A DNA stretch of 64,000 nucleotides. Source: Pseudomonadota bacterium. Its GTDB lineage: Bacteria; Pseudomonadota; Gammaproteobacteria; Burkholderiales; Burkholderiaceae_C. Of this stretch, positions 17,159-58,352 are shown piece by piece (the first letter of the stretch is position 1; the number at the start of each line of letters is the position of its first letter). The stretch spans positions 124,001 to 188,000 of the forward strand of contig JAFEDY010000022.1 in NCBI GenBank assembly GCA_018241405.1, read 5' to 3'. Made by a program: the position numbers and the translations under genes. Under the pieces are notes generated by a model. That model saw nothing but the letters and a program-made list of their open reading frames with translations, ran no database searches and was not told where the DNA came from.

Positions 17159-17996
17159 ATGCTGAGCACCGTCTTGAGCAGACGATCGCTGTTGCGCCAC
17201 CAGCGGCGGCTGTTGGCCGCTACCGAGCTGTCGGTGGTGTTCTATGACCTGACGACGATTCGCGCCGCGGGTGGCCTGGGCGGGTCAGCGCTTGGTGGTG
17301 GCGCACGACCCGCACAAGGGGCAGGAGCAAACGAATCAGCGCAGGCAGCGCATTGCCGAGCTGGAGCGGCGGGCGGCGCAACTGGCGGGCAAGCTCGACG
17401 CGCAGGAGGCCGGCCAGACATCCCGGGGCCGCAAGATGAGCGACAGCGGTGCCAAGGCACGTTTCTACCGTGAGGTGTGCGAGGCCCACCTGGCCAGCAT
17501 CATCCGGGTCGATCTCAAGAGCGCGTTGTTTACCTACGAGATCCATGAGCCAGCGCTGCAGCGTGCCCAAATGATGGATGGCAAGCTGCTGATGGTCACC
17601 AACGTGCCCGGCGAGGATTTGTCGGCCCAAGAGGTGCTGGAGCGCTACAAGAGTCTGGCCGACATTGAGCGGGGGTTCAGGGTGCTCAAGTCCGATATCG
17701 AGATGGCGCCGGTGTACCACCGTCTGCCCCAGCGTATCCGCTCGCATGTCAGTATTTGCTTCATGGCGTTGATCCTGCACCGGGTGATGCGCATGCGCCT
17801 CAAGCGCGCCCAGCATCCCGACAGCCCGCAGACCGCCTTGCGGCTGCTGCGCCGGGTGCAGCGCCAGACGGTGCGCATCAATGACGCGCAGCCCGTGACG
17901 GGCATCTCCAGTATCAATGACCAGCAGTGCGCCATCATGGCGGCACTGGACCTGAAGAAGCTGCCGCAGGAAGGAGGACAGATGAGCCTCGTGTAG
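17159..17996 (+). pseudogene. IS1634-family transposase remnant (internal deletion and frame change)
   Basis: Two frames together look like an IS4/IS1634-type DDE transposase. The first (from 17159) has ELSVVFYDLTTIR, matching the first catalytic Asp region. The second (from about 17271) has SDSGAKARF and the C-terminal YKSLADIERGFRVLKSDIEMAP segment with the catalytic Glu, then HVSICFMALIL. The intervening catalytic region and the N-terminus are missing and the frame changes at about 17260, so it cannot be active. Confidence 0.75.
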
Positions 17997-18039
17997 CCGG
18001 TTGTAGTGGCAATTTGAAAACCGGGTTCAATAGAATCAA

Positions 18040-18316
18040 TGACTTATCGCGGTTGGTGCCGAACTCGGGCTACCTGAGCGCACGGCGCAGCGAAATGCTC
18101 AAGGCGCTGGACTACCGGGAACACATCCAGCGCAAGGGCCAGAAGAACAAGCCCCTGAGCGCATGCCAGAAGAAGCGCAATACGCGCATCGCCAAGATCC
18201 GTGCCCGAGTGGAGCACCCCTTTGCCCAGATGCGCCACATGGGCGGCAAGCTCATTCGCACCATCGGCCAGGCACACTCGCCTGCGCGCTGCAAATGCCC
18301 GCCAGCAAGGGCCTGA
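18040..18316 (+). pseudogene. IS5-family transposase C-terminal fragment
   Basis: In frame +2 the segment YLSARRSEMLKALDYREH, then IAKIRARVEHPFAQMRHMGGK and LIRTIGQA, is the C-terminal end of an IS5-group transposase, including the conserved glutamate in RVEHPF. There is no N-terminal half; it directly abuts the IS1634 remnant. It ends about 20 bp from the last gene of the catabolic region, so this is the physical border of the island. Confidence 0.7.
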
Positions 18317-18336: not shown

Positions 18337-21300
18337 CTACATGCGGCACACAGCGGCTGCATTCGGGTAATGGGGGACGGCAGCCATGGGGTAATCGGTG
18401 TAGCCCGCTGGGCCCGGTGTATAAAACGTCCGTCGATCGAATTTCGCAAGCGGAAGACCGCTACGCATTCGCCGGACGAGATCTGGATTGCCGATAAAGT
18501 GGCGCGCAAAAGACACCGCTTCGCCTTCACCACCGGCAATCGCACGCTCGGCCGACTCCGGATCGAAGCCGTCGTTGAGGATCAGGCGCCCGGGAAAATA
18601 CTTGCGAGCGAGGGCGAAGGCGTCGATGTCAGATACCGGCGCGCGCATCACATGCAGATAGGCGAGCCCAAGTGGCGCGGCCTGACGCAGAAACTCCTCG
18701 TGTGTCGCCGCCGAATCTTCATCCCTTGCGTCGTTATAGGTATTCCCCGGATTGACACGAAATCCCACACGATCCGCACCAATAGCGCCCACAATCGCCT
18801 TCAGGCATTCGACCGCGAAGCGCACCCGTTCCGATGCGCTGCCGCCGTACTCGTCCGTACGACGGTTGGTTTCTGAGTACATGAATTGCATAGGCAGGTA
18901 GCCACTCGTGCAGTGCAGTTCCACCCCATCGAATCCGGCCTCGCGCGCTCGAAGGGCAGCCAGGCGATGCGCCTCGATCGCCATCCGGATATCGTCCAGC
19001 GTCATTTCGCGCGGAATGTCGAAATCCTGCATGCTGGCAGCATCGGTATAGATCTGCCCCTGGGCGCGGATGACCGAGGGAGCGAGTGTCGCCACCCCGT
19101 CGGGTTTGATGCGCGAACTGCCTATCCGACCAGAGTGCATGATCTGCAGCACGATCTGCCCCCCACGGGCGTGCACTGCATCGACAACCTTGCGCCAACC
19201 CGCAACGTGTGCGTCGGTCACGATCCCGGGCTGACGACAGTAAGCCTGACCTTCTGCGCAGGGCCAAGTCCCCTCGGCGACGATGAGCCCGGCGTCGGCA
19301 CGCGCCGCATAGTATTCGACCATCAGGTCGTCTGGCACGCCGTCAGGCAGCGCCCGGTTACGCGTCATTGGCGCCATCACGATCCGGTTCGCGAGCACCA
19401 GCGCCCCCAGCGTGAGGGGTCGGAAGATCGCGTACTCTTCAAACTCGTCAGAGCGGTCGCCGACGCCCGGGAGTGCATCAGCAACCAGTTCGGCAATGTC
19501 GAACACCTTGCGCTCGGATCCCTCGCGAGACGCGCTCGAACTCAGCATCAGCAGGCAGAACGAGCAGGAGGTGGCGATCTTGTCGGCGCCAGTATCGAGG
19601 GCCTCACGAGTGCGTACGTCGTTGATTCGCGTGGTGCCGCTCTTCCCCGCACTCCAATAATTGCAGCCACCAGCACCGCAGCACATGCTGTCCTTCCGGT
19701 TGCGAGGCATCTCGATCAATTGTCCGACTGCGGAAAGGACCTTGCGCGGCTGTTCAACAATATCGTTGTGACGCGCAAGGTAGCATGGATCGTGGAAGGT
19801 GATCTTGTCCGCCTCGTCACGCTCCACCTTGAGGCGTCCGTCGGCAATCCACTGCTCGATCAGCACGGAATGCGGAATCGTGACCCACTTCGCCCCCAAC
19901 TCCGGGTAGTAGCGCTCGAAACTGTTGAAGCAGTGTGCGCACATCGTGATGACCTTCTGGATGCCCCGCTCATGGAGGGTCTCGATGTTGTCCTGCGCCA
20001 TCTCCACAAACTGAATCTCGTTGCCGGCCATTTTGGCGGGATCGCCAGTGCAGCGCGCCTCGCCTAGCACCCCCCAGGACACACCCGCGGCTTCGAGGAT
20101 GCGCACCATCGCGCGCGCGACCTCCTGGGCCCGTTCCTCGTAGGTCACGGCACAGCCCAGCCACAACAGGTACTCGGTCTTGCCGGCTTCGAACAAGGGT
20201 ACGTCCAGCCCCTTGCACCAGTCCTCCGGATTGGCAGCGGTCCCAGCGAAGGGGTGCCCACGCGACTCCAGGTTGCGGTTCGCCATCGCCAGCGTGTCCG
20301 GCATCTCGGAGCGATCCATTACCAGGTTTCGGCGGAACTCCAGAATGATCTCCGCCGGATTGTTGCTAACCGGGCACTCCTCGACACAGGCGGCGCAGGT
20401 TGTGCAATCGAAGATGGCCTCGCTCCCGACCTCGTCGATCAGCGCTGGGTCGTCGAATCGGCCCTGCTCAAGGTATTCGGCGCAGGTGAGCATAACCGTC
20501 TTGGGGGACAGCGCCTTGCCGGTCTGTGCCGCGGGGCAGGCCTCCTGGCAGCGGCCGCAGCCCAGGCAGGCGGAGAGGTCGAGCAGGCTCTTGCGCGACA
20601 GTTCGTCCAGCCGCGTTGCGCCTAGGCGGAGCGTGTCTTCGTCGGCGTCGAAGTCGATCGGCGTAAGCTGAATGCCAGGGCGCTTGCGCGCAAACGCCGA
20701 GTTGGCCGGCCCCAACACCATGTGTGAAAGCGGAGTGTATGCAATCAACGCGATGAAGCCGACACCCAGCAGCCCATGCACCCACCACATCAAGGCGGTT
20801 CCACGCATTATCTTGTCGGCATCAAGGCCACTCAAACCCGCGGCAACGAGGCTACCGACGAACTCACCGGAGGGCGGCTGCGGCAGTCCCGCCAAACGGA
20901 AGGACTCGGCTAGAAATCCAGCCACCACGGTCAGCAGCAGCAGGGCCTCCATGCAGATGAAACCCTTGCGCTCACCCCCATCCACCAGCCGAGGCAGGCG
21001 GGCGAGCCGACGCAGGAGGAAAAAGCCCACGCCCGTGAGCATCGCAAGCCCCGCCAACTCGCGTGCCCACCGCATCACTACCGTACCGAACCAGCCCGCG
21101 TACACATCGATGCCGACGAAGCTGAGCGCAAAGCTCGCATGACCAAAAATGGCAATCAGCGCACCGCCAAACAGCAGGGTATGCGCTAGCCCGGCCACCG
21201 GCCGCTTCCAGAGCCGGGAGGTGAGCAAGGCACGATGAAGGAAACTCTCCGCATTGAAGTCACGCCCGAGGAAGTCCGCTTCCTCGCCACCGGGAGACGG

Positions 21301-21432
21301 GTCGCGTCCGTGGGCGATGCGCTGACGGTGGCGCCGCAAACCCAAGATGAGCGCCACCAGTGCAGCACTCAGCAGGACAGCGAGCAAAAGGTATTCGATC
21401 ACCGAAGGAGCGTACATCTCGGGCTTCCCCAT
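18337..21432 (-). CDS. fusion: membrane Fe-S (CCG-domain) oxidoreductase with C-terminal Old Yellow Enzyme domain
   Basis: 1,031 residues. Residues 1-250 contain about five membrane helices like the cytochrome b (NarI-type) part of ETF:quinone oxidoreductases. Two CxxCxxCxxxCP ferredoxin motifs follow (Cys289/292/295/299 and Cys343/346/349/353), then two CCG domains (HDPCYLARH near 547, MCCGAGGC near 583). From about residue 668 a complete OYE-type flavin domain begins (RPLTLGALVLANRIVMAPMTRNR). This joins a quinone-side electron carrier to an enoate reductase in one chain. In the OYE active site His840 is kept, but the residue three later, normally Asn or His, is Ser843. Last gene of etfA-DUF35-ltp1-fusion. 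The last 15 residues, next to the IS scar, look unlike OYE ends. A start at 21417 (after GGGGAAG) is possible. Confidence 0.85.
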   Translation of the reverse strand: MGKPEMYAPSVIEYLLLAVLLSAALVALILGLRRHRQRIAHGRDPSPGGEEADFLGRDFNAESFLHRALLTSRLWKRPVAGLAHTLLFGGALIAIFGHASFALSFVGIDVYAGWFGTVVMRWARELAGLAMLTGVGFFLLRRLARLPRLVDGGERKGFICMEALLLLTVVAGFLAESFRLAGLPQPPSGEFVGSLVAAGLSGLDADKIMRGTALMWWVHGLLGVGFIALIAYTPLSHMVLGPANSAFARKRPGIQLTPIDFDADEDTLRLGATRLDELSRKSLLDLSACLGCGRCQEACPAAQTGKALSPKTVMLTCAEYLEQGRFDDPALIDEVGSEAIFDCTTCAACVEECPVSNNPAEIILEFRRNLVMDRSEMPDTLAMANRNLESRGHPFAGTAANPEDWCKGLDVPLFEAGKTEYLLWLGCAVTYEERAQEVARAMVRILEAAGVSWGVLGEARCTGDPAKMAGNEIQFVEMAQDNIETLHERGIQKVITMCAHCFNSFERYYPELGAKWVTIPHSVLIEQWIADGRLKVERDEADKITFHDPCYLARHNDIVEQPRKVLSAVGQLIEMPRNRKDSMCCGAGGCNYWSAGKSGTTRINDVRTREALDTGADKIATSCSFCLLMLSSSASREGSERKVFDIAELVADALPGVGDRSDEFEEYAIFRPLTLGALVLANRIVMAPMTRNRALPDGVPDDLMVEYYAARADAGLIVAEGTWPCAEGQAYCRQPGIVTDAHVAGWRKVVDAVHARGGQIVLQIMHSGRIGSSRIKPDGVATLAPSVIRAQGQIYTDAASMQDFDIPREMTLDDIRMAIEAHRLAALRAREAGFDGVELHCTSGYLPMQFMYSETNRRTDEYGGSASERVRFAVECLKAIVGAIGADRVGFRVNPGNTYNDARDEDSAATHEEFLRQAAPLGLAYLHVMRAPVSDIDAFALARKYFPGRLILNDGFDPESAERAIAGGEGEAVSFARHFIGNPDLVRRMRSGLPLAKFDRRTFYTPGPAGYTDYPMAAVPHYPNAAAVCRM

Positions 21433-21470: not shown

Positions 21471-22664
21471 TCAACGCTTGAGGATGGCCGCTGTGGCATT
21501 GCCACCCAGGCCATTCGTCTGAGCCAGACCGACCCGCGCCCCCTGCACTTGGCGTGCTCCAGCCTCGCCACGCAGTTGCCAGGTCAGCTCTGCGATCTGG
21601 AATACACCCATCGCGGTCGTCGCCTCACCGAAGGACACGAAACCGCCCGAAGGGTTGATCGGCATCCGACCACTTGGCGCGGTTTCTCCCGCCTCCAGCA
21701 ACCGCTCGGCCTCACCCGGCTCGCACAACCCCCATTCCTCGGGAAAAGCGAGCTCGTAGTAGCAGGTGTTGTCCTGGAGCTCGGTGAAGCTGATCTCACG
21801 CGGACCGATACCGGCCTGCTCAAACGCGCGCATTACCGCAGCCTTGGCCTCTGTATGGAAGCTCGGGCCGGAAGGTACCGGCCCAGCAAGGCTGCGCGGC
21901 AAGGCATCTTCGAACGCGATCGTGGCCACCGCGCTGGTGGCCACGGTGATCGGCTTGCGGGTGAAGCGGCGAGCCATCGCAGCAGAACAGATCACCGCAG
22001 CGGCGGCACCGTTCGACACCGGACAGATCTCGAACAAGCGTAGCGGGTCGCTGACGTACGGCGATGAGAGCACCTCGTCTACGCTCACTTCCTTCTGGAA
22101 ACGGGCGAAGGGGTTGCCGACGGCACACTTGCGCGCCTTGACCGTCACCTTGGCCATTTGCTCTTCCGTCGTGCCGAAATCGTGCATGCGGCGACGGGCA
22201 AGCGTGGCCCAGAACGACGGTCCGGGCATGCCGACGCAGCGTTGACGCAAGAACTCCGGATCATTGACATCCTCGACACCCGAGGTCTGGATCATGCCCT
22301 TGGGCATCACCTCGCCGCCAACAACCAACACCATGTTATAGATGCCGCCGGCCACCAGCGAGTAGCCCACATTGAAGGCGTTTCCACCTGCGGCGCAGCC
22401 GGCCGACAGGTTGTAGACCGGAACGCCGGTGCACCCGAGATCTTCGACGATGTCGTTACCGTTCAACCCCCAGCCCTTGCCGCCGGAGAACCGCGAACTC
22501 GCCGCCGACACAGCCTCAATCTGCCGCCAGGACACGCCCGCGTCCTTGAGCGCCATATCGACTGCCGCACGACACAATTCGGTGACCGACTTGTTGCCCA
22601 CGATGGCATCGCCAGTTTTGCCGAACCGATGCATGCCAACACCTAGAACCACGACTTCCTGCAT
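21471..22664 (-). CDS. lipid-transfer-protein thiolase/aldolase (SCP2-thiolase-like), first copy
   Basis: 397 residues of the thiolase superfamily, non-decarboxylating SCP2/Ltp branch. A cysteine sits at the nucleophile position (NLSAGCAAGG, Cys90), but the GHPxG motif of true thiolases is replaced by FGEATTAMG. Proteins of this branch act as thiolases or as retro-aldolases that release a short acyl-CoA, and usually need a DUF35 partner. Such a partner is encoded 13 bp upstream in the same operon. Expected in the cytoplasm on a beta-keto- or beta-hydroxyacyl-CoA; substrate unknown. Confidence 0.82.
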   Translation of the reverse strand: MQEVVVLGVGMHRFGKTGDAIVGNKSVTELCRAAVDMALKDAGVSWRQIEAVSAASSRFSGGKGWGLNGNDIVEDLGCTGVPVYNLSAGCAAGGNAFNVGYSLVAGGIYNMVLVVGGEVMPKGMIQTSGVEDVNDPEFLRQRCVGMPGPSFWATLARRRMHDFGTTEEQMAKVTVKARKCAVGNPFARFQKEVSVDEVLSSPYVSDPLRLFEICPVSNGAAAAVICSAAMARRFTRKPITVATSAVATIAFEDALPRSLAGPVPSGPSFHTEAKAAVMRAFEQAGIGPREISFTELQDNTCYYELAFPEEWGLCEPGEAERLLEAGETAPSGRMPINPSGGFVSFGEATTAMGVFQIAELTWQLRGEAGARQVQGARVGLAQTNGLGGNATAAILKR

Positions 22665-22677
22665 GTTGTTTGCTCCC

Positions 22678-23091
22678 TCAGGTCAGCCTGAATTTCCAGG
22701 ACGTAAAAGCCTTGCCATCCTCGTGATAAATCGGTTCGATGACGAGCTCGACACGCGCACCAACACGCATGCTTTCAGCATCTCCGACCATCTGCCCGAC
22801 AACGCGTAATCCCTCTTCCAGATCGACCACGCCGATCACGTAGGGGCGGAAGGGCGCGTCGAACTTGTGCGGTGCAGGCGGCGTGAAATTGGCGACAGAA
22901 TAGCTCCAAAGGGTTCCGCCCCCGCCGAAACCATGAGCCTCCAGATCGGAGCCGCTGCAATCGGGATTTCGGCAATGCGCCGGAGCGGGAAAATAGGGCG
23001 TGCCACAGCAACGGCAGCGGGCACCCGCCAGCCGCGCGCCACCCACTTCGCTGAAAAGGTTCGGCACGCAGGCTTCGCGCATTTCACTCAT
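22678..23091 (-). CDS. DUF35 OB-fold zinc-ribbon protein, partner of the Ltp thiolase
   Basis: 137 residues. The N-terminal rubredoxin-like zinc ribbon has CRCCG and CRNPDC (four cysteines), followed by an OB-fold with FGGGGTLWSYSV and PYVIGVVDLEEGLRVVGQMV. DUF35 proteins bind acyl-CoA and form complexes with Ltp-type thiolases or aldolases (for example the ChsH2 DUF35 part with Ltp2 in steroid catabolism). Lies between etfA (9 bp gap) and ltp1 (13 bp gap). Confidence 0.88.
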   Translation of the reverse strand: MSEMREACVPNLFSEVGGARLAGARCRCCGTPYFPAPAHCRNPDCSGSDLEAHGFGGGGTLWSYSVANFTPPAPHKFDAPFRPYVIGVVDLEEGLRVVGQMVGDAESMRVGARVELVIEPIYHEDGKAFTSWKFRLT

Positions 23092-23100
23092 GCCGCCCCC

Positions 23101-24048
23101 TCAGGCCTTCGCTGCGCGGATAAGCTCCGGCAGCAGTTCGACACAATCCCCGACGACGCCATACCGGGCGTAGCGGAAGATCGAGGCATCCGGATCGGTG
23201 TTGATGGCGATGATCGTCTTCGCAGCAGAGCAGCCAGCCATGTGCTGGCTGGCACCGGAGATACCGAGCGCGATGTAAAGCCCCGGACGAGTGATCTTGC
23301 CGGTGAGGCCTACCTGACGCGAGGAATCGATCCAGCCGTCATCCACGATCGCACGCGACCCGCCCCACATCCCGCCAAGCGCATCCGCCATATTCTTGAC
23401 AAACTCGAAGTTCTCGCGCTTGCCCAGGCCGCGCCCGCCCGAAACAATGATCTCCGCATCCTCGAGGCGCTGCCCCTGAACCTGCGGCGCCGAGATCACC
23501 TCGAAGACTCCCCCACCGACGACCGACTCCACGTCGACGCGCCGGGTTTCCACTTGGGCAGTTGCATCAACCTTGCGGGCGACGATGGTGGCCGTCACGA
23601 CGGATACGACGTTGCGCGGTGCCTTCAGCAGGTACTCGGCCCGGGTGTCGCCACCGTAGGCACTCGCCTCGGCCCTGAGGGCACCGCCATCCGGCGCCAG
23701 CGAGACCACGTTCGCGAGCACCGGAAGGCCGAGACGTCCGGCCACGCGCGCCGCCACCACACGACCTTCGACAGTCTGATTAAAGAGCATCAGCTCGGGT
23801 GCCTGCGCCGTACAGTAGCCGGCGATGACCGACACGCGCTCATCGACGCTGCCGGGCGAAGCCGTGATCACATCGATCTTGCGCACACCATACAGCGCGG
23901 CCGCAGCTGCGGCCTCCTGCTCGAGCGCGAGCGTCACCACCCAGCGCACCTCGACGCCACGCGCAGCCGCAATCTCCGCGGCAAGTGTCAAGGCCTCTAC
24001 CGCACCCCCTTCAATCCTGTCACCCCAGGAAAACAGAACGATCGTCAT
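23101..24048 (-). CDS. etfA: electron transfer flavoprotein alpha subunit
   Basis: 315 residues. The C-terminal FAD-binding domain is typical: SGGRGLGKRENFE, VGLTGKITRPGLYIALGISG, HMAGCSAAKTIIAINTDPDA and IFRYARYGVVGD. It should pass electrons from acyl-CoA dehydrogenases to a membrane oxidoreductase, which could be the fusion protein in the same operon. Preceded by AAGGAG, first gene of the minus-strand run. Odd: no etfB is found next to it or elsewhere in the window, although alpha and beta genes are normally adjacent. Confidence 0.9.
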   Translation of the reverse strand: MTIVLFSWGDRIEGGAVEALTLAAEIAAARGVEVRWVVTLALEQEAAAAAALYGVRKIDVITASPGSVDERVSVIAGYCTAQAPELMLFNQTVEGRVVAARVAGRLGLPVLANVVSLAPDGGALRAEASAYGGDTRAEYLLKAPRNVVSVVTATIVARKVDATAQVETRRVDVESVVGGGVFEVISAPQVQGQRLEDAEIIVSGGRGLGKRENFEFVKNMADALGGMWGGSRAIVDDGWIDSSRQVGLTGKITRPGLYIALGISGASQHMAGCSAAKTIIAINTDPDASIFRYARYGVVGDCVELLPELIRAAKA

Positions 24049-32420: not shown

Positions 32421-33344
32421 ATGAAATTTGCACTGGCAACACCTGCACTGAACACCTATCCGGCCGCGATGGCTCCTTGGGAGCCGCGTGCGGGAGGAGT
32501 CGATATCCTGCGCTATGCGCGTAAGGCGGACTCGCTGAGCTGGAACTGGCTGACTCTGCCGGAGCATATCGTGATGCCCAGCGAGATGAAGGAAGTCATG
32601 GGGCCGCGCTGGGCCGAGAGCATCGTCGCCGCGGCGACCCTGATGGGGGCAACCGAACGCATCCACATGCTCACCTACATCTTGCCGCTTCCCTATCGGC
32701 ACCCCCTGCTGCTGGCCAAGCAAATCGCCACGATGGAGTTCCTGGCCGGCGGCCGGTTCACCCTCGGCACCGCAGTCGGTCATCTGGAAAAGGAGTTCGA
32801 GGCGCTGGGGATTCCCTTCAACAAGCGCGGAGCGATGACTGACGAATACCTGGCGGCGATGAAGGTGGCCTGGACGTCCGACAACCCCGAATTCGAAGGC
32901 GAATTCGTGCGCTTCAAGGACATCACCGTCGAACCCAAGCCGGTTCAGAAGCCGCACCCGCCGATCTTCATCGGTGGAAACTCCAAACCGGCCATGCGCC
33001 GTGCCGCCGAACACGGGGACGGCTGGATCCCATGGCTGGTCACGAGCGAAGACCTGCCCGACTGCATTGCTTACATGAAGAGCCTGCCGGCGTACGAGGC
33101 CAAGGCAGACCGCTTCGAGATCCTCGTCACCACGACTGCATACAAGGTCGAGGACTACTCGCACGCCGAATCCAGCGAAACACAGATTTCGAGCGACCGC
33201 GACAGCGTGCTGCGCGAGATCGAGGCTTTGCAGAAGGCCGGTGCGACCTCGGTGCAGGTAATGCCGCCACGCTTCGATGCCATCGATCAGACCCTCGACT
33301 GGATCGAGTGGTACGACCAGGAAATCATCCCAAACTTCCGCTGA
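32421..33344 (+). CDS. LLM-class (luciferase-like) oxidoreductase, probably F420-dependent, copy 1
   Basis: 307 residues with the bacterial-luciferase TIM barrel and the sequence of the TIGR03619-type F420-dependent group: LTLPEHIVMP, LPLPYRHPLLLAKQIATMEF, LAGGRFTLGTAVGHLEKEFE, PPIFIGGNSKPAMRRAAEHG, DGWIPWL. Members use F420 or FMN. The F420 biosynthesis operon at 57.7-63.1 kb and a second copy at 52.7 kb favour F420. It lies inside the acyl-CoA operon, so it probably oxidises an alcohol or reduces an enoyl intermediate. Which of these cannot be told. Confidence 0.85.
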   Translation: MKFALATPALNTYPAAMAPWEPRAGGVDILRYARKADSLSWNWLTLPEHIVMPSEMKEVMGPRWAESIVAAATLMGATERIHMLTYILPLPYRHPLLLAKQIATMEFLAGGRFTLGTAVGHLEKEFEALGIPFNKRGAMTDEYLAAMKVAWTSDNPEFEGEFVRFKDITVEPKPVQKPHPPIFIGGNSKPAMRRAAEHGDGWIPWLVTSEDLPDCIAYMKSLPAYEAKADRFEILVTTTAYKVEDYSHAESSETQISSDRDSVLREIEALQKAGATSVQVMPPRFDAIDQTLDWIEWYDQEIIPNFR

Positions 33345-34980: not shown

Positions 34981-35859
34981 ATGAAACCGGCACCCTTCGA
35001 GTACTACGCCCCGTCCTCGCTGACCGACGCGGTTGATCTGCTCGCCCAACTCGACGCCGACGGATGCGACATGAAGATCATCGCCGGGGGGCAGAGCCTC
35101 ATGCCAATGCTTGCGTTACGGGTAGCGCGACCCGAGGCGCTGGTCGACCTCCGTTTGCTCGGGGAGCTTGACTACATCCGCAAGCAAGAGGACGGTACGC
35201 TCGCAATCGGCGCCATGACGAGCAAGCAGGCTGCGGTGGATTCGCCGCTGGTCAAGGACGCGCAACCGCTGTTCCATGCCGCCACGGAGCTAGTGGGCCA
35301 CCGCCAGATCCGCAACAGAGGATCGGTCGGCGGATCCTTCGCGCATGCCGATCCCGCTTCGGAGTATCCCGCTGTGGCGCTTGTGCTCGACACCGAATTC
35401 GATGCCAGCGGGCACAACGGCCCACGCACGATTCCTGCGCAGGATTTTTTCGTCACCTACATGACCACTGCGCTCGAATCCACCGATATCCTCACCGCGG
35501 TGCGCTTTGCGCCTTTCCCGTATGGACGCCGCTGGGCCATCCAGGAGTTCTCGCGCCGCAACGGTGATCTCGCGCTCGCCGGTGTGGCCCTTGCCTTCAA
35601 TATCGAAGCTGGCTTGTGCCGCGACGTGCGCATTGCAGCCTTTGGCGTCGAGGCGACCGCCGTCCGCCTGACTGCGGCCGAGCAGATGCTCGAAGGACGC
35701 CCTGCGCAGGGCGTCGAGTTCGAACGCGCGGGCAAGATTGCGGCGGCGGCGCTCGATGATCCGATGAGTTGCATCCATGCCTCGTCCGAATACCGTCGCC
35801 ATCTCGTTGGTGTACTGACCGCACGCGCGCTTGGCGAAGCCGCCGCACGCAGCAACTGA
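34981..35859 (+). CDS. molybdenum hydroxylase FAD subunit (CoxM/HcrB-like)
   Basis: 292 residues of the medium subunit of xanthine dehydrogenase-family enzymes. FAD is bound by AGGQSLMPMLALRVARPEALVD (IAGGQSLMPML) and TELVGHRQIRNRGSVGGSFAHADPA. It passes electrons from the Mo centre via the Fe-S subunit to an acceptor. First gene of the order M-S-L (FAD, Fe-S, Mo), as in carbon monoxide dehydrogenase clusters, but see the large subunit. Confidence 0.9.
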   Translation: MKPAPFEYYAPSSLTDAVDLLAQLDADGCDMKIIAGGQSLMPMLALRVARPEALVDLRLLGELDYIRKQEDGTLAIGAMTSKQAAVDSPLVKDAQPLFHAATELVGHRQIRNRGSVGGSFAHADPASEYPAVALVLDTEFDASGHNGPRTIPAQDFFVTYMTTALESTDILTAVRFAPFPYGRRWAIQEFSRRNGDLALAGVALAFNIEAGLCRDVRIAAFGVEATAVRLTAAEQMLEGRPAQGVEFERAGKIAAAALDDPMSCIHASSEYRRHLVGVLTARALGEAAARSN

Positions 35860-35882
35860 TCAACCGAACCTGGGAAGCACTC

Positions 35883-36377
35883 ATGGCCAGCAAACAGCGC
35901 ATCGAAGTCCGGGTAAATGAAACCACATACGTCCGTGAGGTCGAGCCCCGCCTGACGCTCGCCGATTTCCTCCGTCACGAACTCCACCTCGGCGGCACAC
36001 ACGTGGGCTGCGAACATGGGATTTGCGGTGCGTGCACGGTTCTGATCGACGGGCATAGCGCGCGCGCATGCCTCACCCTGGCAGTGCAGACCGACGGCAG
36101 CGAAGTGACCACGGTCGAAGGCCTTCGTGACCACGACACTGGCGCCCTGCACCCCATCCAGCAGGCCTTCGTGGACGGTCACGGACTGCAGTGCGGCTTC
36201 TGCACACCCGGTTTCATGATGACCACACTGGAGCTGCTGCGTGACATCCCGGATCCGAACGACGATCAGATCAAGGATGCGCTTGGCGGAAACCTGTGCC
36301 GCTGCACCGGCTATCAGTCGATCCTCGATTCGGTGAAGCTCGCCGCACGGCGCATGAAATCGAACGCCCCTACCTGA
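35883..36377 (+). CDS. molybdenum hydroxylase [2Fe-2S] subunit (CoxS-like)
   Basis: 164 residues starting at the ATG at 35883. The plant-ferredoxin-type cluster motif is CEHGICGACTVLIDG with a fourth cysteine following, and the second cluster is held by CGFCTPGFMM and CRCTGY. It transfers electrons between the molybdopterin centre and FAD. Full length for the family. Confidence 0.93.
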   Translation: MASKQRIEVRVNETTYVREVEPRLTLADFLRHELHLGGTHVGCEHGICGACTVLIDGHSARACLTLAVQTDGSEVTTVEGLRDHDTGALHPIQQAFVDGHGLQCGFCTPGFMMTTLELLRDIPDPNDDQIKDALGGNLCRCTGYQSILDSVKLAARRMKSNAPT

Positions 36378-36393
36378 GCATGACGAAAAGACT

Positions 36394-38811
36394 ATGGCGA
36401 TCGAAATTCCCACCCTGCCAGACCAGATGCCGAACGACGCGCCGCGCTACGTCGGGAAAGCGGTCAACCGCGTTGAAGACCCAGCCCTCGTCTCGGGAAC
36501 AGTCCAATTCATCGACAACCTTTCTCTGCCGGGCATGCTGCACTGCGCGATCCTACGCAGCCCACATCCCCATGCCCGCATCGTGTCGATTGATGTGGAC
36601 GCAGCGCTGTCCGCCGAAGGCGTCGCCGCGGTACTCACCGGCGAAGACGTGCGGCGCTGGACCAACCCCTGCTTCACCGCCCCTGAAGGATGGGGCAACT
36701 ACTGCATGGCGGTGGACAAGGTGCGTTTCGTCGGAGAGCCGGTCGTGGCCATCGCGGCAAGCAGCCGCTACCTGGCCGAAGACGCGCTCGAACTAGTGAC
36801 TATCGAGTACGAGCCGCTCCCGCCGGTGGCCAGCCCCGAGCAGGCGATGGCACCCGGCGCACCCGTCATTTTCGAGGAGCGTGGCACCAACGTCATCTTG
36901 AGCCGCACCTACACCTGGGGCGAACTGGATCGCGTGTTCTCGCAAGCCGATCGTGTGGTGAGCCGGCGCTTCCGCTGGAACCGCGTGGGTGCGAACCCAA
37001 CCGAAACCTTCGGCTGCATTTGCCAGTGGGACTTTGCCGACAACAGCCTCACCTGCCACGGCTCCTACCAGACTCCTCGCTTCATGGCCATCGGCCGGGC
37101 AGCTTCCCTGAATCTGCCGACAAACCGCATCCGCATCGTCCCCCACCCGCAAGGTGGCGGTTTCGGTGGTAAGGGTGGACCGCGCGGCACCGACATTGCG
37201 GCCCTGCTGTCCCGCAAGGCGCGGGGACGCCCCGTCAAATACATCGAGGATCGCATGGAGTACCTGCTCGCCGGTGGCGGGCAGTCCTGGGACCGCTATT
37301 ACGACGCTGCGCTCGCGGTTATGGCTGATGGGAGTGTCACAGGCTTCCGGGTTCGTCTGGTGGACGACCAGGGCGCAGGCGCCGAGGGCTACGGAACGAT
37401 CTCCGCTGCGAAGCCCCTGGCAGCATTCACCGGCAACTATCGCATCGAGGCAGCCGGCTACGATCTCACTCTGGTGGCGACGAATCGCGCGCCAACCTAT
37501 CCCTACCGCGGCTACGGCCCCCCTCCGCACAACCTGGTACTTGAGTCGCTGATGGACTGCACGGCACGCGAGCTGGGCATCGACCCGGCCGAGCTGCGCC
37601 GCCGCAACTACATTCGCCCGGAACAGTTTCCCTACACGGTGCCCAGCGGCAACGAATACGACAGCGGCAACTACGAGGCCGTACTGGATCGCGTCCTCGA
37701 TCTGGCCGACTACAAGGCCATGCGCACACGCCAGGCCGAGGCCCGCGCCCAGGGAAGACTGGTCGGTATCGGCGTGGTAAGTACCGTCGAGCCCGGGGTC
37801 TTTGACTGGAACGCGTATGCCACCGTTGGGGTTCCCGGCGTCGGCGTGCCGGAGGGCGTGAAGGTCGCGGTCGATCTGTTTGGGAACGTGACCGTGGCCG
37901 TGGGCTTCAACCTGCAAGGACAGGGGCAGTTCACTGTCGCCGCGCAGGTCGCAGCCGACTACTTCGGCATCGACATCGCACAGGTTCGCATCGCGAGTAC
38001 GCCCTCGGACGTTGCGCTGCCCCACTTCGGGCAGGGTGGCAGCCGCCTGGGCGTCGCGGTCACCGGGGCGACCCTGGGCGCATGCGAAAAGCTACGGGCG
38101 ACTTTTTGCAAGGTCGCGGCACACGTGATGCAGGCGCCGGAGGATTCCGTGGCGCTGCGCAACGGTCGCCTGCACCGCATCGACGCGCCCGGGCATTCCA
38201 TGTCCCTGGCCGAGGTCGCAGGCCTGATGCTGTCGCGCACCGACCTGCTGCCGCCAGGCGTCGAGCCCTGCCCCGAGGCGACCTACGTGTGGGCCTCGCC
38301 CAACCGTAACGCGCCGGATGACCAAGGTCGCTGCCGCAGCTACCTCACTGCTGCCAACGCCACCCATGTCGCGCTGATCGAGATCGACCACGACACCGGT
38401 CGCACCCAGATACTGGACTACGCCATCGTCGACGACTGCGGCACACGCCTCAACCCGGCCAGCGTCGAGGGCCAGCTGCAGGGCGGCGTCGCCCAGGGCG
38501 TCGGTGCGGCGCTATATGAGGAGTATGTCTACGACGCCGACTGCCAGCCGCTCGTGAGCACCTTCGTCGACTATCTGATCCCGACCATCCATGAAGTCCC
38601 GATGACGAGAAAGGATCACATCGTCACGCCATCGCCGGTCACGCCGCTGGGCGCGAAGGGTTGCGGTGAAGGCGCAATCCACACCACGCCGGCGACTATC
38701 CTGTGTGCCATCAATGACGCCCTCGCGCCGCTGGGCAAGGAACTGCTCGAAACACCGGCGTCGCCCCACCGCATTTGGAAGCTGCTTCACCAAAATGGGC
38801 CGGCGGCTTGA
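36394..38811 (+). CDS. molybdenum hydroxylase large subunit (xanthine dehydrogenase family, not CO dehydrogenase)
   Basis: 805 residues, large molybdopterin subunit. GGGFGGKGG binds molybdopterin, and the C-terminal GAKGCGEGA carries the base glutamate. The active-site loop around residues 367-377 reads PTYPYRGYGPP, not the AYxCSFR of true aerobic CO dehydrogenases, so CO oxidation is unlikely. It probably hydroxylates a C-H bond of a pathway intermediate, using water as oxygen source. The cofactor is probably molybdopterin cytosine dinucleotide (family knowledge). A maturation gene (xdhC type) exists only as a broken piece at 52.4 kb. Confidence 0.9.
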   Translation: MAIEIPTLPDQMPNDAPRYVGKAVNRVEDPALVSGTVQFIDNLSLPGMLHCAILRSPHPHARIVSIDVDAALSAEGVAAVLTGEDVRRWTNPCFTAPEGWGNYCMAVDKVRFVGEPVVAIAASSRYLAEDALELVTIEYEPLPPVASPEQAMAPGAPVIFEERGTNVILSRTYTWGELDRVFSQADRVVSRRFRWNRVGANPTETFGCICQWDFADNSLTCHGSYQTPRFMAIGRAASLNLPTNRIRIVPHPQGGGFGGKGGPRGTDIAALLSRKARGRPVKYIEDRMEYLLAGGGQSWDRYYDAALAVMADGSVTGFRVRLVDDQGAGAEGYGTISAAKPLAAFTGNYRIEAAGYDLTLVATNRAPTYPYRGYGPPPHNLVLESLMDCTARELGIDPAELRRRNYIRPEQFPYTVPSGNEYDSGNYEAVLDRVLDLADYKAMRTRQAEARAQGRLVGIGVVSTVEPGVFDWNAYATVGVPGVGVPEGVKVAVDLFGNVTVAVGFNLQGQGQFTVAAQVAADYFGIDIAQVRIASTPSDVALPHFGQGGSRLGVAVTGATLGACEKLRATFCKVAAHVMQAPEDSVALRNGRLHRIDAPGHSMSLAEVAGLMLSRTDLLPPGVEPCPEATYVWASPNRNAPDDQGRCRSYLTAANATHVALIEIDHDTGRTQILDYAIVDDCGTRLNPASVEGQLQGGVAQGVGAALYEEYVYDADCQPLVSTFVDYLIPTIHEVPMTRKDHIVTPSPVTPLGAKGCGEGAIHTTPATILCAINDALAPLGKELLETPASPHRIWKLLHQNGPAA

Positions 38812-41724: not shown

Positions 41725-42243
41725 ATGTCAACACACGAGCGGGACAAGATGGTGAAGCCGGACTACATGTCCGACGCGGACTGGGAGGGGCTCAAGGCAG
41801 CGACGGCATCGCTCGAGCGCATTCGCGGCGACGCGAAGGCCGATGTAGCGCGCTATCTCGCCAACCCGGATGGCTGGTCAACCGGGACGGGTTCGCCTTC
41901 CGGCCTGCCCACCCTGCTGCTCACCATGGTCGGTCGCAAGTCCGGAGAGAAGCGGACTACGCCGCTGGTCTTTCTCCAGGATGGAGGGAACATGGTGGTG
42001 GTGGCCTCACTTGCCGGTTACGACCAGGATCCAGCGTGGTTCCTCAACGTGACGGCAAACCCTGAGTGCTGGGTTCAGTGTGACCGCAACCGGATGACTG
42101 CTATCGCGCATCAGGCGAGTGATGAGGAACGTAAAGCGCTTTGGCCTCGCCTTGTGGAGCTGTTCCCCACCTGGGGCTATTTCCAGGCGCAGACCGATCG
42201 CCCGTTCGGGATCGTGGTACTCGTCCCGACCGGTGAGGCCTGA
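41725..42243 (+). CDS. deazaflavin (F420)-dependent nitroreductase-family protein (DDN type)
   Basis: 172 residues with the DDN/split-barrel pattern: LPTLLLTMVGRKSGEKRTTPLVF, then VVVASLAGYDQDPAWFLNVTANPECWVQC (key parts MVGRKSGEKRTTPLVF and DPAWFLNVTANPECWV). In actinobacteria such proteins bind F420H2 and reduce quinones, nitro-imidazoles or enones. Finding one next to an OYE homologue in a betaproteobacterium is notable. Start at 41725 with CTGGAGG upstream. It is the third kind of F420-linked enzyme in this window. Confidence 0.85.
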   Translation: MSTHERDKMVKPDYMSDADWEGLKAATASLERIRGDAKADVARYLANPDGWSTGTGSPSGLPTLLLTMVGRKSGEKRTTPLVFLQDGGNMVVVASLAGYDQDPAWFLNVTANPECWVQCDRNRMTAIAHQASDEERKALWPRLVELFPTWGYFQAQTDRPFGIVVLVPTGEA

Positions 42244-42308
42244 GACGGTACGTCAGGCGGGCATCGATGGCCCCGCCTGCCGTACCGGTGAAACCGGAGG
42301 AGATATTC

Positions 42309-44306
42309 ATGAGCAATGTGAAGTTCGAGCATCTGTTCTCGCCGCTGCAGGTCGGACCGATGAGGGTGCCCAATCGAATCTGTGAAACCACGAACACGAT
42401 CAATTCATCGCGGGCACCTGGGCTGATCGACGAGCATTTCATTGCCCATCACGGCGCGAAGGCCAAAGGGGGCACCGGCTGGATCGGCAGCGAGACTTGG
42501 CTGCTCAATCTTCCCTTTCCCGAAGGCGCACCGGATGAGGTGTCCTTGCGCGGTGGTTTCGGCTCCCACTTTGCGGCGCATCAGAATCCGGCGTTCATCG
42601 AGGGCTGGGCGCGCTTCGTGGAGGAAATCCACTCCAGTGGTTCGGTCGTGGTGGTTCAGCTAACGCATCTGAATGCCCTGTGGGCACCGTCGCCGGTGCC
42701 GGTGGTTGGTGCGCAGGACTACACCCCGCACGTCCTTGGCGAGAAGGAGATTGAGTTCCTCCTTGAGGGCTACGCCGACGCGGCCGAAGCGGCGATGAAG
42801 AGCGGAGCGGACGGGGTGGAGATCCACTGTGCGCACGAAACAGTGGGCTACAGCTTCCTGTCACCAGTGACCAACCGCCGCACCGACCAATGGGGAGGCG
42901 GGCCGAAGGAGCGAGTGCGCTTCGTGATCGAGGCCTTGCGTCGCGTGCGTTCGCGAGTCGGAGACAAGCTCGCGGTCGGCATTCGCATCAACGGGCAGGA
43001 GTCGCGCGAAGGAGGTTACGACAACATCGAGCTTCGCGAGATGCTCTACTACATCGCCGAGACCGGCTTGCTTGATTTCGTCGACCTTGATGTGGGACAT
43101 TGCTGGGGGGCGCCGTCCTATGTGCCTTCGTCCTACCATCCTCACGCCGAATACCGTGAATTCGGCAAGGCGGCGCGTTCGGACATGGCCGAATTCGATC
43201 GCAAGATTGCCGTCTTGTTCACTGGTCGCATCAACGACACGGTACTGGCCGAAGAACTGCTCAAGGGCGGCTTTTGCGACTTAGTCGGCATGGTCAGGGC
43301 CGGCATCGCCGATCCCGAGTTCGCCAACAAGGCACGTGAAGGGCGCATGAACGAGATCCGCCGCTGCATCGCATGCACGCGATGCATTGACGAGGCGTCG
43401 GAACCGATGACGATTCCCTACGCTCCCACGTGTTCTATCAATCCTGAAATCGGCAACGAACTGCACTGGCGGGATCACTTCCGCCCCGCAGCGCAGCCGG
43501 GGCATGTGGTGGTGGTCGGCGGTGGCGCTGCGGGTTGCGAGGCCGCCAGAATCGCTGCCATACGTGGTCACAAGGTAACGCTGCTCGAACGGGGCAAGCG
43601 CCTGGGCGGCCAGTTGCTGATCGCCGCGCGCGCGCCCGGGCGTGATTCCTTCGAGGATCAGGTGTATTTCGAAGAAAACGCACTTGAGCGCCTTGGGGTC
43701 GAAGTTCGCCTGCAAACATGCGCTGATGTGGACATGATCAAGTCGCTCGCGCCGAGCGCGGTGGTTGTGGCCACCGGGGCTTTGCCACGGCTTCCCGCAG
43801 AAGTGGCCGGCATTGATCTGCCGCACGTGGTTCAAGGCTGGGATGCGCTGCTTGGAAAGGTCGAAACTGGAAAGCGAGTGGCAGTGGTGTCGCAGGAGGA
43901 CTACTACCAGACGCCCTGCGTGGCCGAATATCTCGCCGCGCAAGGCAGGCGGGTAGAGGTGTTCCACAAGTCGGTTCATCTCGCCACCGAGGTTGCACGC
44001 TACTCTATCGGCATGGTGCTCAAGCGCATGGAGCAGTGCGGGGTGGTGGTGCATCCGAACCGCGTACTCAAGGCAGTGCAGGCGGATGGGCTTGAGTTCG
44101 TATCCGCCTGGGGTGACCGAACCTACCGTGAGCAGGGCTTTGACACTGTGGTGCTGGTGTACGGCGCCATCCAGCAATCAGCCTTGTATTATCAGCTGCA
44201 GGCGGAGCCCGGTATTCCCCGCGTGTTCCTGGCTGGCTCGGCCTGGGTGCCTCGACGTCTGGCGGAAGCGACCCGTCACGGTTCGAGCGTCGGCATGTTA
44301 CTCTGA
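42309..44306 (+). CDS. OYE/Fe-S/FAD reductase (2,4-dienoyl-CoA reductase- or BaiH-like)
   Basis: 665 residues from the ATG at 42309 (SD GGAGG). Three parts: an FMN-binding OYE barrel (LFSPLQVGPMRVPNRI; VTNRRTDQWGG), a four-cysteine [4Fe-4S] site (C353, C356, C359, C375), and a C-terminal FAD/NAD(P)H domain beginning with VVVVGGGAAGCEAARIAA near residue 400. The set matches 2,4-dienoyl-CoA reductase, bile-acid BaiCD/BaiH reductases and the naphthoyl-CoA reductase group, all of which reduce conjugated C=C bonds. Which one is not decided. In line with ddn after the AraC gene. Confidence 0.87.
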   Translation: MSNVKFEHLFSPLQVGPMRVPNRICETTNTINSSRAPGLIDEHFIAHHGAKAKGGTGWIGSETWLLNLPFPEGAPDEVSLRGGFGSHFAAHQNPAFIEGWARFVEEIHSSGSVVVVQLTHLNALWAPSPVPVVGAQDYTPHVLGEKEIEFLLEGYADAAEAAMKSGADGVEIHCAHETVGYSFLSPVTNRRTDQWGGGPKERVRFVIEALRRVRSRVGDKLAVGIRINGQESREGGYDNIELREMLYYIAETGLLDFVDLDVGHCWGAPSYVPSSYHPHAEYREFGKAARSDMAEFDRKIAVLFTGRINDTVLAEELLKGGFCDLVGMVRAGIADPEFANKAREGRMNEIRRCIACTRCIDEASEPMTIPYAPTCSINPEIGNELHWRDHFRPAAQPGHVVVVGGGAAGCEAARIAAIRGHKVTLLERGKRLGGQLLIAARAPGRDSFEDQVYFEENALERLGVEVRLQTCADVDMIKSLAPSAVVVATGALPRLPAEVAGIDLPHVVQGWDALLGKVETGKRVAVVSQEDYYQTPCVAEYLAAQGRRVEVFHKSVHLATEVARYSIGMVLKRMEQCGVVVHPNRVLKAVQADGLEFVSAWGDRTYREQGFDTVVLVYGAIQQSALYYQLQAEPGIPRVFLAGSAWVPRRLAEATRHGSSVGMLL

Positions 44307-52380: not shown

Positions 52381-52761
52381 CCGCTGGCACCCGCGCGTCC
52401 GAGCTTCATCAGACTGTTCGGGCCACATCACCGCGCCCAGCGCCTGATCGAGGAAGTGGAAGCGCTCGGAACACCTATCGACGATGCGCTGCGAAACAAC
52501 ATCTTCGATTTGGTCGGGCTGGATATCGGCGCCGATACCCTCGCCGAGGTGGCACTCGCTATTAGCGCTGAAATCCAGGCCCTGATCCAGGGCCGGCATG
52601 GCGGACATGCCCGCCTACGCACTGCCCTGCTGCACACCGACGCCATCGCTCCAAAGGCAGACGCCAATGCGCTTAGTGGGCCAGCCTGGTCTATGGCTTT
52701 GCAGCCTCAAGCCGGGCTGACCGGCATGAGGATCCTCAAGCTCAATCCACCCGAGCGATGA
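52381..52761 (+). pseudogene. C-terminal fragment of an XdhC/CoxF-family molybdenum-cofactor insertion factor
   Basis: An open stretch of 126 codons without its own proper start reads FIRLFGPHHRAQRLIEEVEA then LVGLDIGADTLAEVALAISAEIQALIQGRHGG, which is the conserved C-terminus of XdhC/CoxI-type proteins (consensus VGLDIGAxTPEEIAxSIxAEI). XdhC delivers the modified molybdenum cofactor to enzymes like the one at 34981-38811. The N-terminal part is gone; an in-frame stop lies at 52378-52380 and the IS3 scar lies before it. It overlaps the 3' end of the convergent LLM gene by 20 bp. Confidence 0.7.
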
Positions 52762-53614
52762 CCTCGTCGCCAAAGCGACGAATGGCATCGAGCCGTGCGG
52801 TCTTGTCCTCAGGATCACAGCCCAGATCCCACGGAATCAGTCCCGCATGCGTCAATCCAATGTCACGTAGGCGACGAAAATCATCCAGCGTTCGCGCACT
52901 GAAATCGATACCGTGGATCTCGTAGTCCACGCGATCCAGCGTTCCGTATTCGGCACGGTAACCATTGAGCTGCGAAATCAGCGACTTCAGGGTCTCCAGG
53001 TCGGTATTTGCCGAGGCCCAGCCGTCGCCGAGGCGCGCGGCGCGGCGCAAGGCCGGCTTGCTGTGCCCGCCCACCAGGATCGGCACCGGGTGCTCGGGTA
53101 CCGGGCGCATGCGCAGCGGCCCGAAATCGAAATGCCTGCCGTGATACTCGAAGAACTCACCGCCCATCGCCGCGCGCAGGATCTCGATACACTCGTCCAT
53201 AATCTCGCCGCGCTTGTCGAAGTTAACCCCGTTGTAGACGAAGTCCTCCTTCCACGGGCTTAGTCCTGCCCCTAGGCTGATCCGGCCACCCGACATGACC
53301 GCTAAAGAGGTCAACGACTTGGCCAGAATCAGGGGCTGACGGACTGGCACCTTGAGCACCCCGGGATAAAAGCGCAGACGCGTGGTCACCGCTGCCATGG
53401 AAGCCATCGCCACGAAGGGCTCGATAAACTCTGACTGCTCCAGGTAGCCGCGGATCGCATCCGTATCTGCATACGGGTAGTCCGATTCAGTCGCACGAGG
53501 ATAAAAAAGGCTGTCGGGCATGGAAAGGCTGTCCCAGCCGGCCTTTTCGGCTTCGCAGGCGATATCCATGTAGTGGCGATAGCTGGCGAAGCCGAGCTGC
53601 AGGACGAATTTCAT
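52742..53614 (-). CDS. LLM-class oxidoreductase, probably F420-dependent, copy 2
   Basis: 290 residues from the ATG at 53614 (CGGAG before it; the longer open frame upstream is noncoding). Same group as copy 1: FYPGVLKVPVRQPLILAKSL, MSGGRISLGAGLSPWKEDF, ILVGGHSKPALRRAARLGDG. The two copies are clearly distinct, so each probably serves a different step. It stands between the broken xdhC and an acyl-CoA dehydrogenase stump, on the same strand as the CoA-transferase run. Confidence 0.85.
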   Translation of the reverse strand: MKFVLQLGFASYRHYMDIACEAEKAGWDSLSMPDSLFYPRATESDYPYADTDAIRGYLEQSEFIEPFVAMASMAAVTTRLRFYPGVLKVPVRQPLILAKSLTSLAVMSGGRISLGAGLSPWKEDFVYNGVNFDKRGEIMDECIEILRAAMGGEFFEYHGRHFDFGPLRMRPVPEHPVPILVGGHSKPALRRAARLGDGWASANTDLETLKSLISQLNGYRAEYGTLDRVDYEIHGIDFSARTLDDFRRLRDIGLTHAGLIPWDLGCDPEDKTARLDAIRRFGDEVIARVD

Positions 53615-53646
53615 CGGGATACTCCGGTTGGAATGGCTGTGTGGCT

Positions 53647-53820
53647 TCAGCGTGGCATCTTCAATGCACCCTCGGAAATGATGTTGAGCTGAATTCCGTT
53701 GGTTCCGGCATAGATCTTGTCTGCGCACGAGAAGAAAAGCACCTGCTGCAGGCGCCTTACGGCAGGGTTCTGCTCTCCGGTGCGCAGATCCCCCTGCACA
53801 CTGATGACATCCATAGCGAG
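53647..53820 (-). pseudogene. acyl-CoA dehydrogenase C-terminal stump
   Basis: The minus strand between a stop at about 53821 and a TGA at 53647 encodes 57 residues ending in CADKIYAGTNGIQLNIISEG and ALKMPR, the unmistakable end of an acyl-CoA dehydrogenase. No start or upstream domains are present. The remaining gap to the next gene (53821-54005) shows no recognisable coding. Confidence 0.75.
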
Positions 53821-54005
53821 CTACCGGGGCGATTCTGCGTATTCCGAAACCTGCAGGCATCATCAATAGGGACTACGAGGGACAGCCAGCGGCTATTCAC
53901 GTTGATCGCCCAATGCAAGCGCTCCTTCATCCATGTGAATGATGCGGGGCACGCCCTCCCTTGTTAACGTACTCCCGACACTGATTAGAGGAAGAGGAGC
54001 TCGCC

Positions 54006-57671: not shown

Positions 57672-58343
57672 ATGGAACAGACAATCGCAGTCGTCGGCGG
57701 AACGGGAAACCTCGGCGCAGCACTTGCACGACGCTGGGCGAAGGCGGGCAGACAGGTGATCATCGGTTCCCGCACCGCTGCTAAGGCTCAGGAAGCCGCC
57801 GAGCATCTGAGCGCCGGGCTGGATACCGTGATCCGGTACGCCTCCAATCTGGAGGCCGCGCGCGCGGCAGACGTCATCGTCGCGACCGTGCCCTTCTCCT
57901 CCCAGTCGGCCGTGCTTGAAGAAATCCGCCCCGCCCTAGCCGGCAAGATCCTAATCGACACCACCGTTCCTCTCGTTCCACCCAAGGTCGCGCGCGTACA
58001 GTTGCCCGCTGAGGGCAGCGCCGCCCAGCGTGCGCAGCGGCAGCTCGGCGAGGGTGTGCGGCTAGTTTCCGCGTTCCACAACGTTGCCGCCCACAAGCTC
58101 GCCACCGACCAGGTCGTGGAATGCGACGTGCTTGTCTTCGGCGATGACAAGGCGGCACGGGCGGTCGCCGTGGACCTCGCCGACTGCGCAGGGCTGCGCG
58201 GACTGCATGCGGGCGGGCTGGCCAACTCCGCCGCGGCAGAGGCACTGACCTCAATCCTCATCTTTCTCAACAAGACCTACAAGGTGGATGGCGCGGGCAT
58301 CCGTATCACCGGTCAGCTTGATCGTTCGGCAGCTGCGGATTGA
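57672..58343 (+). CDS. fno: NADPH:F420 oxidoreductase
   Basis: 223 residues. N-terminal Rossmann GGTGNLGAALARRWAKAG (GxGxxG variant) and the family segments GSRTAAKAQEAAEH, TVPFSSQSAVLEEIRPALAG, LIDTTVPLVPPKV and SAFHNVAAHKLATDQ. It passes hydride between NADPH and F420, here presumably to give F420H2 for the LLM and DDN enzymes. First gene of the operon; 9 bp before cofE. Alternative names in the literature are npdG and fno. Confidence 0.9.
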   Translation: MEQTIAVVGGTGNLGAALARRWAKAGRQVIIGSRTAAKAQEAAEHLSAGLDTVIRYASNLEAARAADVIVATVPFSSQSAVLEEIRPALAGKILIDTTVPLVPPKVARVQLPAEGSAAQRAQRQLGEGVRLVSAFHNVAAHKLATDQVVECDVLVFGDDKAARAVAVDLADCAGLRGLHAGGLANSAAAEALTSILIFLNKTYKVDGAGIRITGQLDRSAAAD

Positions 58344-58352
58344 GGCCTAACG

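Follow-up and report, generated by a model that had tools for sequence, protein, structure and literature searches.

An EtfD-OYE fusion protein in a putative anaerobic androgen-degradation island of a Pseudomonadota bacterium

Here we describe a gene in which an EtfD-type electron-transfer protein and a complete Old Yellow Enzyme (OYE) domain are encoded as a single polypeptide of 1,031 amino acids. The gene lies on the minus strand at 18337..21432 of the window, by which we mean the whole stretch of 64,000 nucleotides that was analysed (GenBank assembly GCA_018241405.1, contig JAFEDY010000022.1, positions 124,001 to 188,000). Its frame opens with an ATG at 21432, comprises 1,031 codons and closes with a stop codon that ends at 18337; Pfam and NCBIfam domains were recognised in it. 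Residues 1-655 constitute the EtfD-family part, residues 656-667 a linker of about 12 residues (19432..19467, minus strand) and residues 668-1016 the OYE domain (18385..19431, minus strand). The parts and their pairing are known; as far as the genomes and plasmids searched extend, only the covalent join is new. An earlier note on this DNA had given the position, length and content of the frame correctly; the anatomy it described, with membrane helices, two ferredoxin motifs, two CCG domains and a full OYE, agrees with our Pfam and AlphaFold results, and its estimate of the junction falls in line with the linker.

Anatomy and origin of the fusion

The best solved relative of the first half is EtfD of Mycobacterium smegmatis (9ojn), which was also the top Foldseek match to the fusion model (E 2.9e-39, 734 columns, TM 0.78 by target). 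In the membrane domain (residues 1-246; 20695..21432, minus strand), delimited from the AlphaFold model and the alignment to EtfD, five transmembrane helices are predicted, modelled as long helices at 11-40, 78-104, 113-143, 155-181 and 205-232, and the heme b ligands of M. smegmatis EtfD, His78 and His241 (PMC13083937), have His84 and His237 as their counterparts in the alignment. Two [4Fe-4S] motifs follow (residues 284-356; 20365..20583, minus strand), recognised by Pfam as two-cluster ferredoxin (Fer4) domains and equivalent to the EtfD clusters D3 and D4. Their cysteines are C289/C292/C295/C299 and C343/C346/C349/C353; by alignment, C289, C292, C295 and C353 would hold one cubane and C299, C343, C346 and C349 the other, the corresponding ligands in M. 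smegmatis being Cys301/304/307/422 and Cys311/412/415/418 (PMC13083937). The two CCG domains (residues 420-630; 19543..20175, minus strand; two Pfam matches, E 5.6e-30) align with EtfD at both of its remaining clusters: C427, C461-T462, C498 and C501 form the linear [3Fe-4S] D1 motif, with its C-T/C-x-H-C pattern (Cys503/538/581/584 and Thr539 in M. smegmatis), and H500, C550, C584, C585, C623 and C626 are the ligands of the noncubane cluster D2 (Cys637/672/673/709/712 and His583; PMC13083937). Because every heme and Fe-S ligand reported for 9ojn is present in the alignment and 9ojn ranks first among solved structures, we regard the first half as a complete EtfD-type electron wire by sequence.

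The ETF-quinone type to which the earlier note had assigned this half can thus be specified as EtfD, and membership of that family is borne out by the five-helix domain with its heme b histidine pair, the two [4Fe-4S] motifs, the two CCG domains with D1 and D2, the fold and an ETF gene in the operon. Mammalian-type ETF-QO was rejected as an identity, EtfD being an unrelated family (PMC13083937). The fusion differs from 9ojn in having a full OYE domain where the latter has a disordered C-terminal region, and in its proteobacterial host; we know it from its sequence and a structural model. That model (AlphaFold, pTM 0.67) has pLDDT values below 50 in the linker and is unreliable at residues 661-694, partly since the alignment misplaced OYE N-termini. 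Because it does not fix the relative placement of the two halves, the model leaves the distance from FMN to the nearest cluster undefined.

The second half belongs to the OYE superfamily: Pfam Oxidored_FMN matches residues 669-995 (E 8.1e-69; 232.9 bits against a cut-off of 27), the barrel is complete (Foldseek TMt about 0.9), and the catalytic Tyr845 and the first substrate histidine, His840, are in place. The active-site positions read His840-x-x-Ser843-x-Tyr845, with Arg892 and with Met765 where Trp is usual. Its nearest solved relatives are NAD(P)H ene-reductases of the GTN reductase/NemA type. With NemA, XenB and GTN reductase it shares the fold, about 40-48% identity, the catalytic Tyr and the first His, but it has HxxS for their HxxN/H and Met for Trp, and it has EtfD attached; the second His/Asn of the substrate pair found in classical NemA/XenB-type enzymes is absent from the alignment, where Ser843 stands. 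The NCBIfam N-ethylmaleimide reductase model gave the domain 277.3 bits, below its cut-off of 403 bits. In the alignment, the combination of HxxS and Met is common to all OYE relatives of 55-88% identity and to some of 45-49%. The C-terminus (window 18337-18400; ...DYPMAAVPHYPNAAAVCRM) is longer than that of the relatives (...DYPVAA) and runs towards transposase debris. A search of the host's own genome found the fusion frame as the sole full-length copy, together with four further matches that were OYE-like genes only, the closest of them 70% identical.

The origin of the join can be read from three relatives in the genus Thauera, Thauera terpenica 58Eu (L007), G826 and G823 (loci including L094 and L095), in which EtfD and OYE are two adjacent genes. 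These relatives and the window share the gene order etfA - OB - thiolase - EtfD - OYE, and the two genes are 76-91% and 77-88% identical to their counterparts in the fusion. The spacer between EtfD and OYE measures 25, 136 and 197 nt in the three genomes; in the window, the EtfD stop, the spacer, the ribosome-binding site, the OYE start and the first few OYE codons are missing. At the level of DNA the window matches the relatives to the left and right of the junction, both halves align without a frameshift, and there is no in-frame ATG, GTG or TTG between fusion residues 644 and 678, the next in-frame start being residue 679. Because the stop-spacer-start segment is gone, the halves are in frame and no start codon lies between 644 and 678, the fusion appears to have arisen by a small deletion joining neighbouring genes and not from a misread frameshift. 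The earlier note had held that a stop or frameshift near residues 655-670, in reads or relatives, would make two genes of the frame: in the relatives there are two genes, whereas in the window the frame is continuous and has no stop. Two genes separated by a single-base sequencing error were rejected as the main explanation, the whole segment being absent relative to the relatives, and a separate OYE start at the GTG of codon 643, though a possible start, lacks a good ribosome-binding site. Comparison of both halves with unfused relatives gave dN/dS values of 0.09-0.13, which mostly reflect the time before the fusion.

A second EtfD-OYE fusion, as the earlier note had suggested looking for, was not found in about 1,500 genomes (samples of 399 from the order, 398 from the phylum, 369 from the class, 250 from the Thauera family and 29 from the Thauera genus, with only strong matches retained in the phylum and Thauera-family searches) or in 72,556 plasmids. 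Approximately 17 EtfD orthologues, with 57-90% identity and from genomes around Thauera, are all unfused, and among the orthologues a short OYE directly follows EtfD only in the three two-gene relatives. Because the search of about 1,500 genomes places it in a single assembly and its nearest relatives are unfused, the fusion is a recent event and not an established enzyme architecture.

Genomic partners and the surrounding island

The operon begins with the gene for an ETF alpha subunit (23101..24048), which has no adjacent ETF beta, followed by an OB-fold/zinc-ribbon protein of the ChsH2 type (DUF35; 22678..23091) and a thiolase-like protein (Thiolase_C_1; 21471..22664), all on the minus strand and recognised by Pfam. 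The thiolase-like protein is 82-97% identical in relatives that keep it beside EtfD. Together with the OB-fold protein it may form a retro-aldolase pair (21471-23091) comparable to Sal and the Shy DUF35 domain. An ETF beta gene is located about 2.4 kb past the window end (contig C14:190389-190904), about 42 kb from the ETF alpha of the operon and on one contig with it; it shares 84% identity with an ETF beta of T. terpenica and of the KAN-75 MAG, and in T. terpenica, too, the matching ETF beta and ETF alpha are on a single contig, about 50 kb apart. The fusion is followed directly downstream by transposase fragments (17159..18316, plus strand; identified from translated open reading frames), whereas in G826 and G823 canonical etfB-etfA genes come immediately after OYE.

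Similar associations recur elsewhere. Members of the OYE subfamily are found upstream of etfB(-etfA) at loci of the Thauera genus (L084-L089, L094-L096, L076 and L077) and before etfB in the more distant G717; other clusters that contain the subfamily have no ETF next to it (L060, L061 and L063-L067). In the window's own family it accompanies SnoaL/SDR and steroid C/D-ring-like genes instead; an example is the OYE paralogue of this genome, which adjoins a CoA-transferase A subunit and a weak match to an IpdE2-like acyl-CoA dehydrogenase. Relatives of EtfD stand beside a long OYE-family gene in L104 and, at about 31% identity, in L109-L113. In one further genome (G386, L034:1435-4536), an EtfD-family protein of 1,033 amino acids has a C-terminal part that reads as ETF beta. 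Like our fusion, it carries a redox partner at the C-terminus of an EtfD-family protein, and its upstream neighbour is a long OYE gene, but the partner, recognised by eye from its sequence, is ETF beta and the EtfD half is only 33% identical. From the etfBA genes beside OYE, the long OYEs beside EtfD and the EtfD-ETF beta fusion, OYE, EtfD and ETF are thus repeated genomic partners. Because their unfused genes adjoin in several lineages, electron exchange between OYE and EtfD is plausible. The window itself encodes a long OYE of 679 amino acids (42267-44306), BaiCD- or mycofactocin-OYE-like, of which a 77% identical relative lies 40 bp upstream of the EtfD orthologue in L104; this long OYE is as good a candidate partner of EtfD as the fused one.

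An atcABC-type molybdenum hydroxylase is encoded on the plus strand at 34981..38811 (FAD subunit 34981-35859, [2Fe-2S] subunit 35769-36377, Mo subunit 36394-38811). atcABC is a marker of the 2,3-seco androgen pathway, and T. terpenica, which carries it, is a reported anaerobic testosterone degrader. Sites for the published degenerate atcA primers are found in the correct orientation at 36496-36518 (three mismatches) and 37642-37668 (no mismatches); the predicted product of 1,173 bp, within 36394-38811, compares with reported products of about 1,100-1,200 bp. The window flank is 75-87% identical to matching regions in five Thauera-genus genomes. Because of these primer sites, the atcABC of T. 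terpenica and the Thauera flank match, a 2,3-seco island for anaerobic androgen degradation is the best reading of the region around the fusion. A monoterpene island, considered since T. terpenica shares genes with the window, was rejected as the primer test pointed to steroids; the accessible part of the Castellaniella defragrans monoterpene island table contains no EtfD-type protein. The 2,3-seco pathway includes a proposed aldolytic step and requires a Delta4 reduction, for which the literature that we found names the 3-ketosteroid Delta4-reductase only by activity. This proteobacterial steroid island also carries a coenzyme F420 gene set (57672-63116, 32421-33344, 52742-53866 and 41725-42243), comprising NpdG, CofE, CofD, CofC and a fused CofGH, all above the NCBIfam cut-offs, along with two F420-type luciferase-like oxidoreductases and a deazaflavin-dependent nitroreductase-family protein. 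F420H2 could supply one reduction of the steroid pathway.

A possible quinone-linked OYE and its alternatives

We tentatively propose, with a confidence that falls somewhat short of even, that the fusion is a membrane-bound quinone-linked OYE whose FMN electrons leave by the EtfD wire, directly or via ETF. The OYE domain would hang on the cytoplasmic C-terminus of an EtfD-type ETF:quinone oxidoreductase and would bind FMN together with a ketone of steroid size or a ring ketone or enone derived from a steroid. Substrate electrons would then pass from FMN to the EtfD clusters (D1/D2, D3 and D4), to heme b and to the quinone pool, the step from FMN to EtfD being taken either inside the chain itself or by way of soluble ETF, for which the EtfD half would still work. 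That FMN is bound, what the substrate is, which way the electrons flow and that they pass straight from FMN to Fe-S are all inferred. In a narrower form, which we consider unlikely but worth stating, the FMN of the single chain would feed the Fe-S/heme wire directly, soluble ETF being bypassed and the dedicated downstream ETF genes lost, and would supply the missing electron route for dehydrogenating a steroid, or for a Delta4 redox step, in anaerobic androgen degradation.

We favour the oxidative, quinone-linked reading because of the OYE/ETF/EtfD neighbourhoods, the direction of electron flow in EtfD and two precedents. The complete set of EtfD ligands, the fold match to 9ojn, the dN/dS values of both halves and the atcA of the island also speak for it. 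DgcA belongs to the OYE family. In dimethylglycine catabolism, DgcB is homologous to EtfD but lacks the D1 cysteines (PMC13083937). As in our proposal, dgcA-dgcB with ETF unites in one redox route a flavoenzyme of the OYE family, a membrane Fe-S protein of the EtfD family and ETF; there, however, the OYE is long and the two proteins are separate, whereas the fusion is a single chain in which the OYE is short and NemA-like and D1 is present. The other precedent, 5beta-Delta4-KSTD1 of Sphingobium sp. Chol11, is a steroid dehydrogenase of the OYE family that depends on an acceptor other than NAD: it reacts with ferricyanide and PMS, does not react with NAD(P)+, and according to its authors has quinones as likely acceptors (PMC8044976). 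At about 75 kDa, with its own [4Fe-4S] cluster and FAD, it differs from the short fused OYE, and in domain layout its nearer counterpart in the window is the long OYE.

Several points stand against the quinone-linked reading: the fusion is found in one assembly, most EtfD orthologues have no short OYE alongside, the dN/dS values speak mainly of the time before the fusion, the AlphaFold model does not fix the placement of the halves, and the Delta4 reduction of the 2,3-seco pathway runs opposite to the favoured oxidative direction. As the main alternative, the fusion might merely hold OYE and EtfD at the membrane in a 1:1 ratio, with EtfD passing ETF electrons to quinone independently and the OYE acting as an ordinary NAD(P)H ene-reductase, for example as the unassigned Delta4-reductase that the pathway needs. 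NADH-using OYE-family steroid reductases exist, the closest solved structures are of NAD(P)H ene-reductases, and the OYE subfamily does occur without an adjacent ETF. Simple tethering nevertheless seems doubtful to us, given the HxxS and Met in place of the HxxN/H and Trp of NemA/XenB-type enzymes and an OYE linkage that involves etfBA and EtfD, not genes that supply NAD(P)H. The Delta4 reduction would also suit the reading of the earlier note, in which quinol or reduced ETF drives an ene-reduction on OYE via the Fe-S wire. Electron wires being bidirectional, the same gene neighbourhoods fit, and electrons at that level would come from a Delta1-dehydrogenase of the pathway. Ubiquinol, however, is a weak reductant for enone reduction. 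The known EtfD passes electrons from ETF to menaquinone (PMC13083937). Because 5beta-Delta4-KSTD1 provides an example of an OYE that oxidises steroids without using NAD(P)+, we believe the reductive direction to be less likely than the oxidative one and give it only a slim chance.

The join could also be a recent accident, nearly neutral, whose products still act separately without a new function, or an error of assembly. Its restriction to a single genome, the transposase debris in place of the downstream etfBA and the altered C-terminus of OYE are in keeping with such an origin. Against it, the frame is kept on both sides of the deletion with no stop or frameshift in either half, and the residues lost belong to the non-conserved OYE N-terminus and leave the domain complete. 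With the junction deep within a contig of 234 kb, an assembly error, though possible, would need an in-frame segment to have been deleted in mid-contig. Taken together, we judge a neutral fusion or assembly error to be improbable.

Implications

The fusion places EtfD in an anaerobic androgen-degradation island, a setting for which the literature that we found does not establish how electrons are routed. A covalent EtfD-OYE protein would make direct flavin-to-wire transfer testable in one polypeptide. The covalent union of EtfD and OYE suggests EtfD as a docking platform for enzymes besides ETF, and it points to an electron partner of the OYE-family steroid dehydrogenases, whose natural acceptor has so far only been guessed to be quinones.
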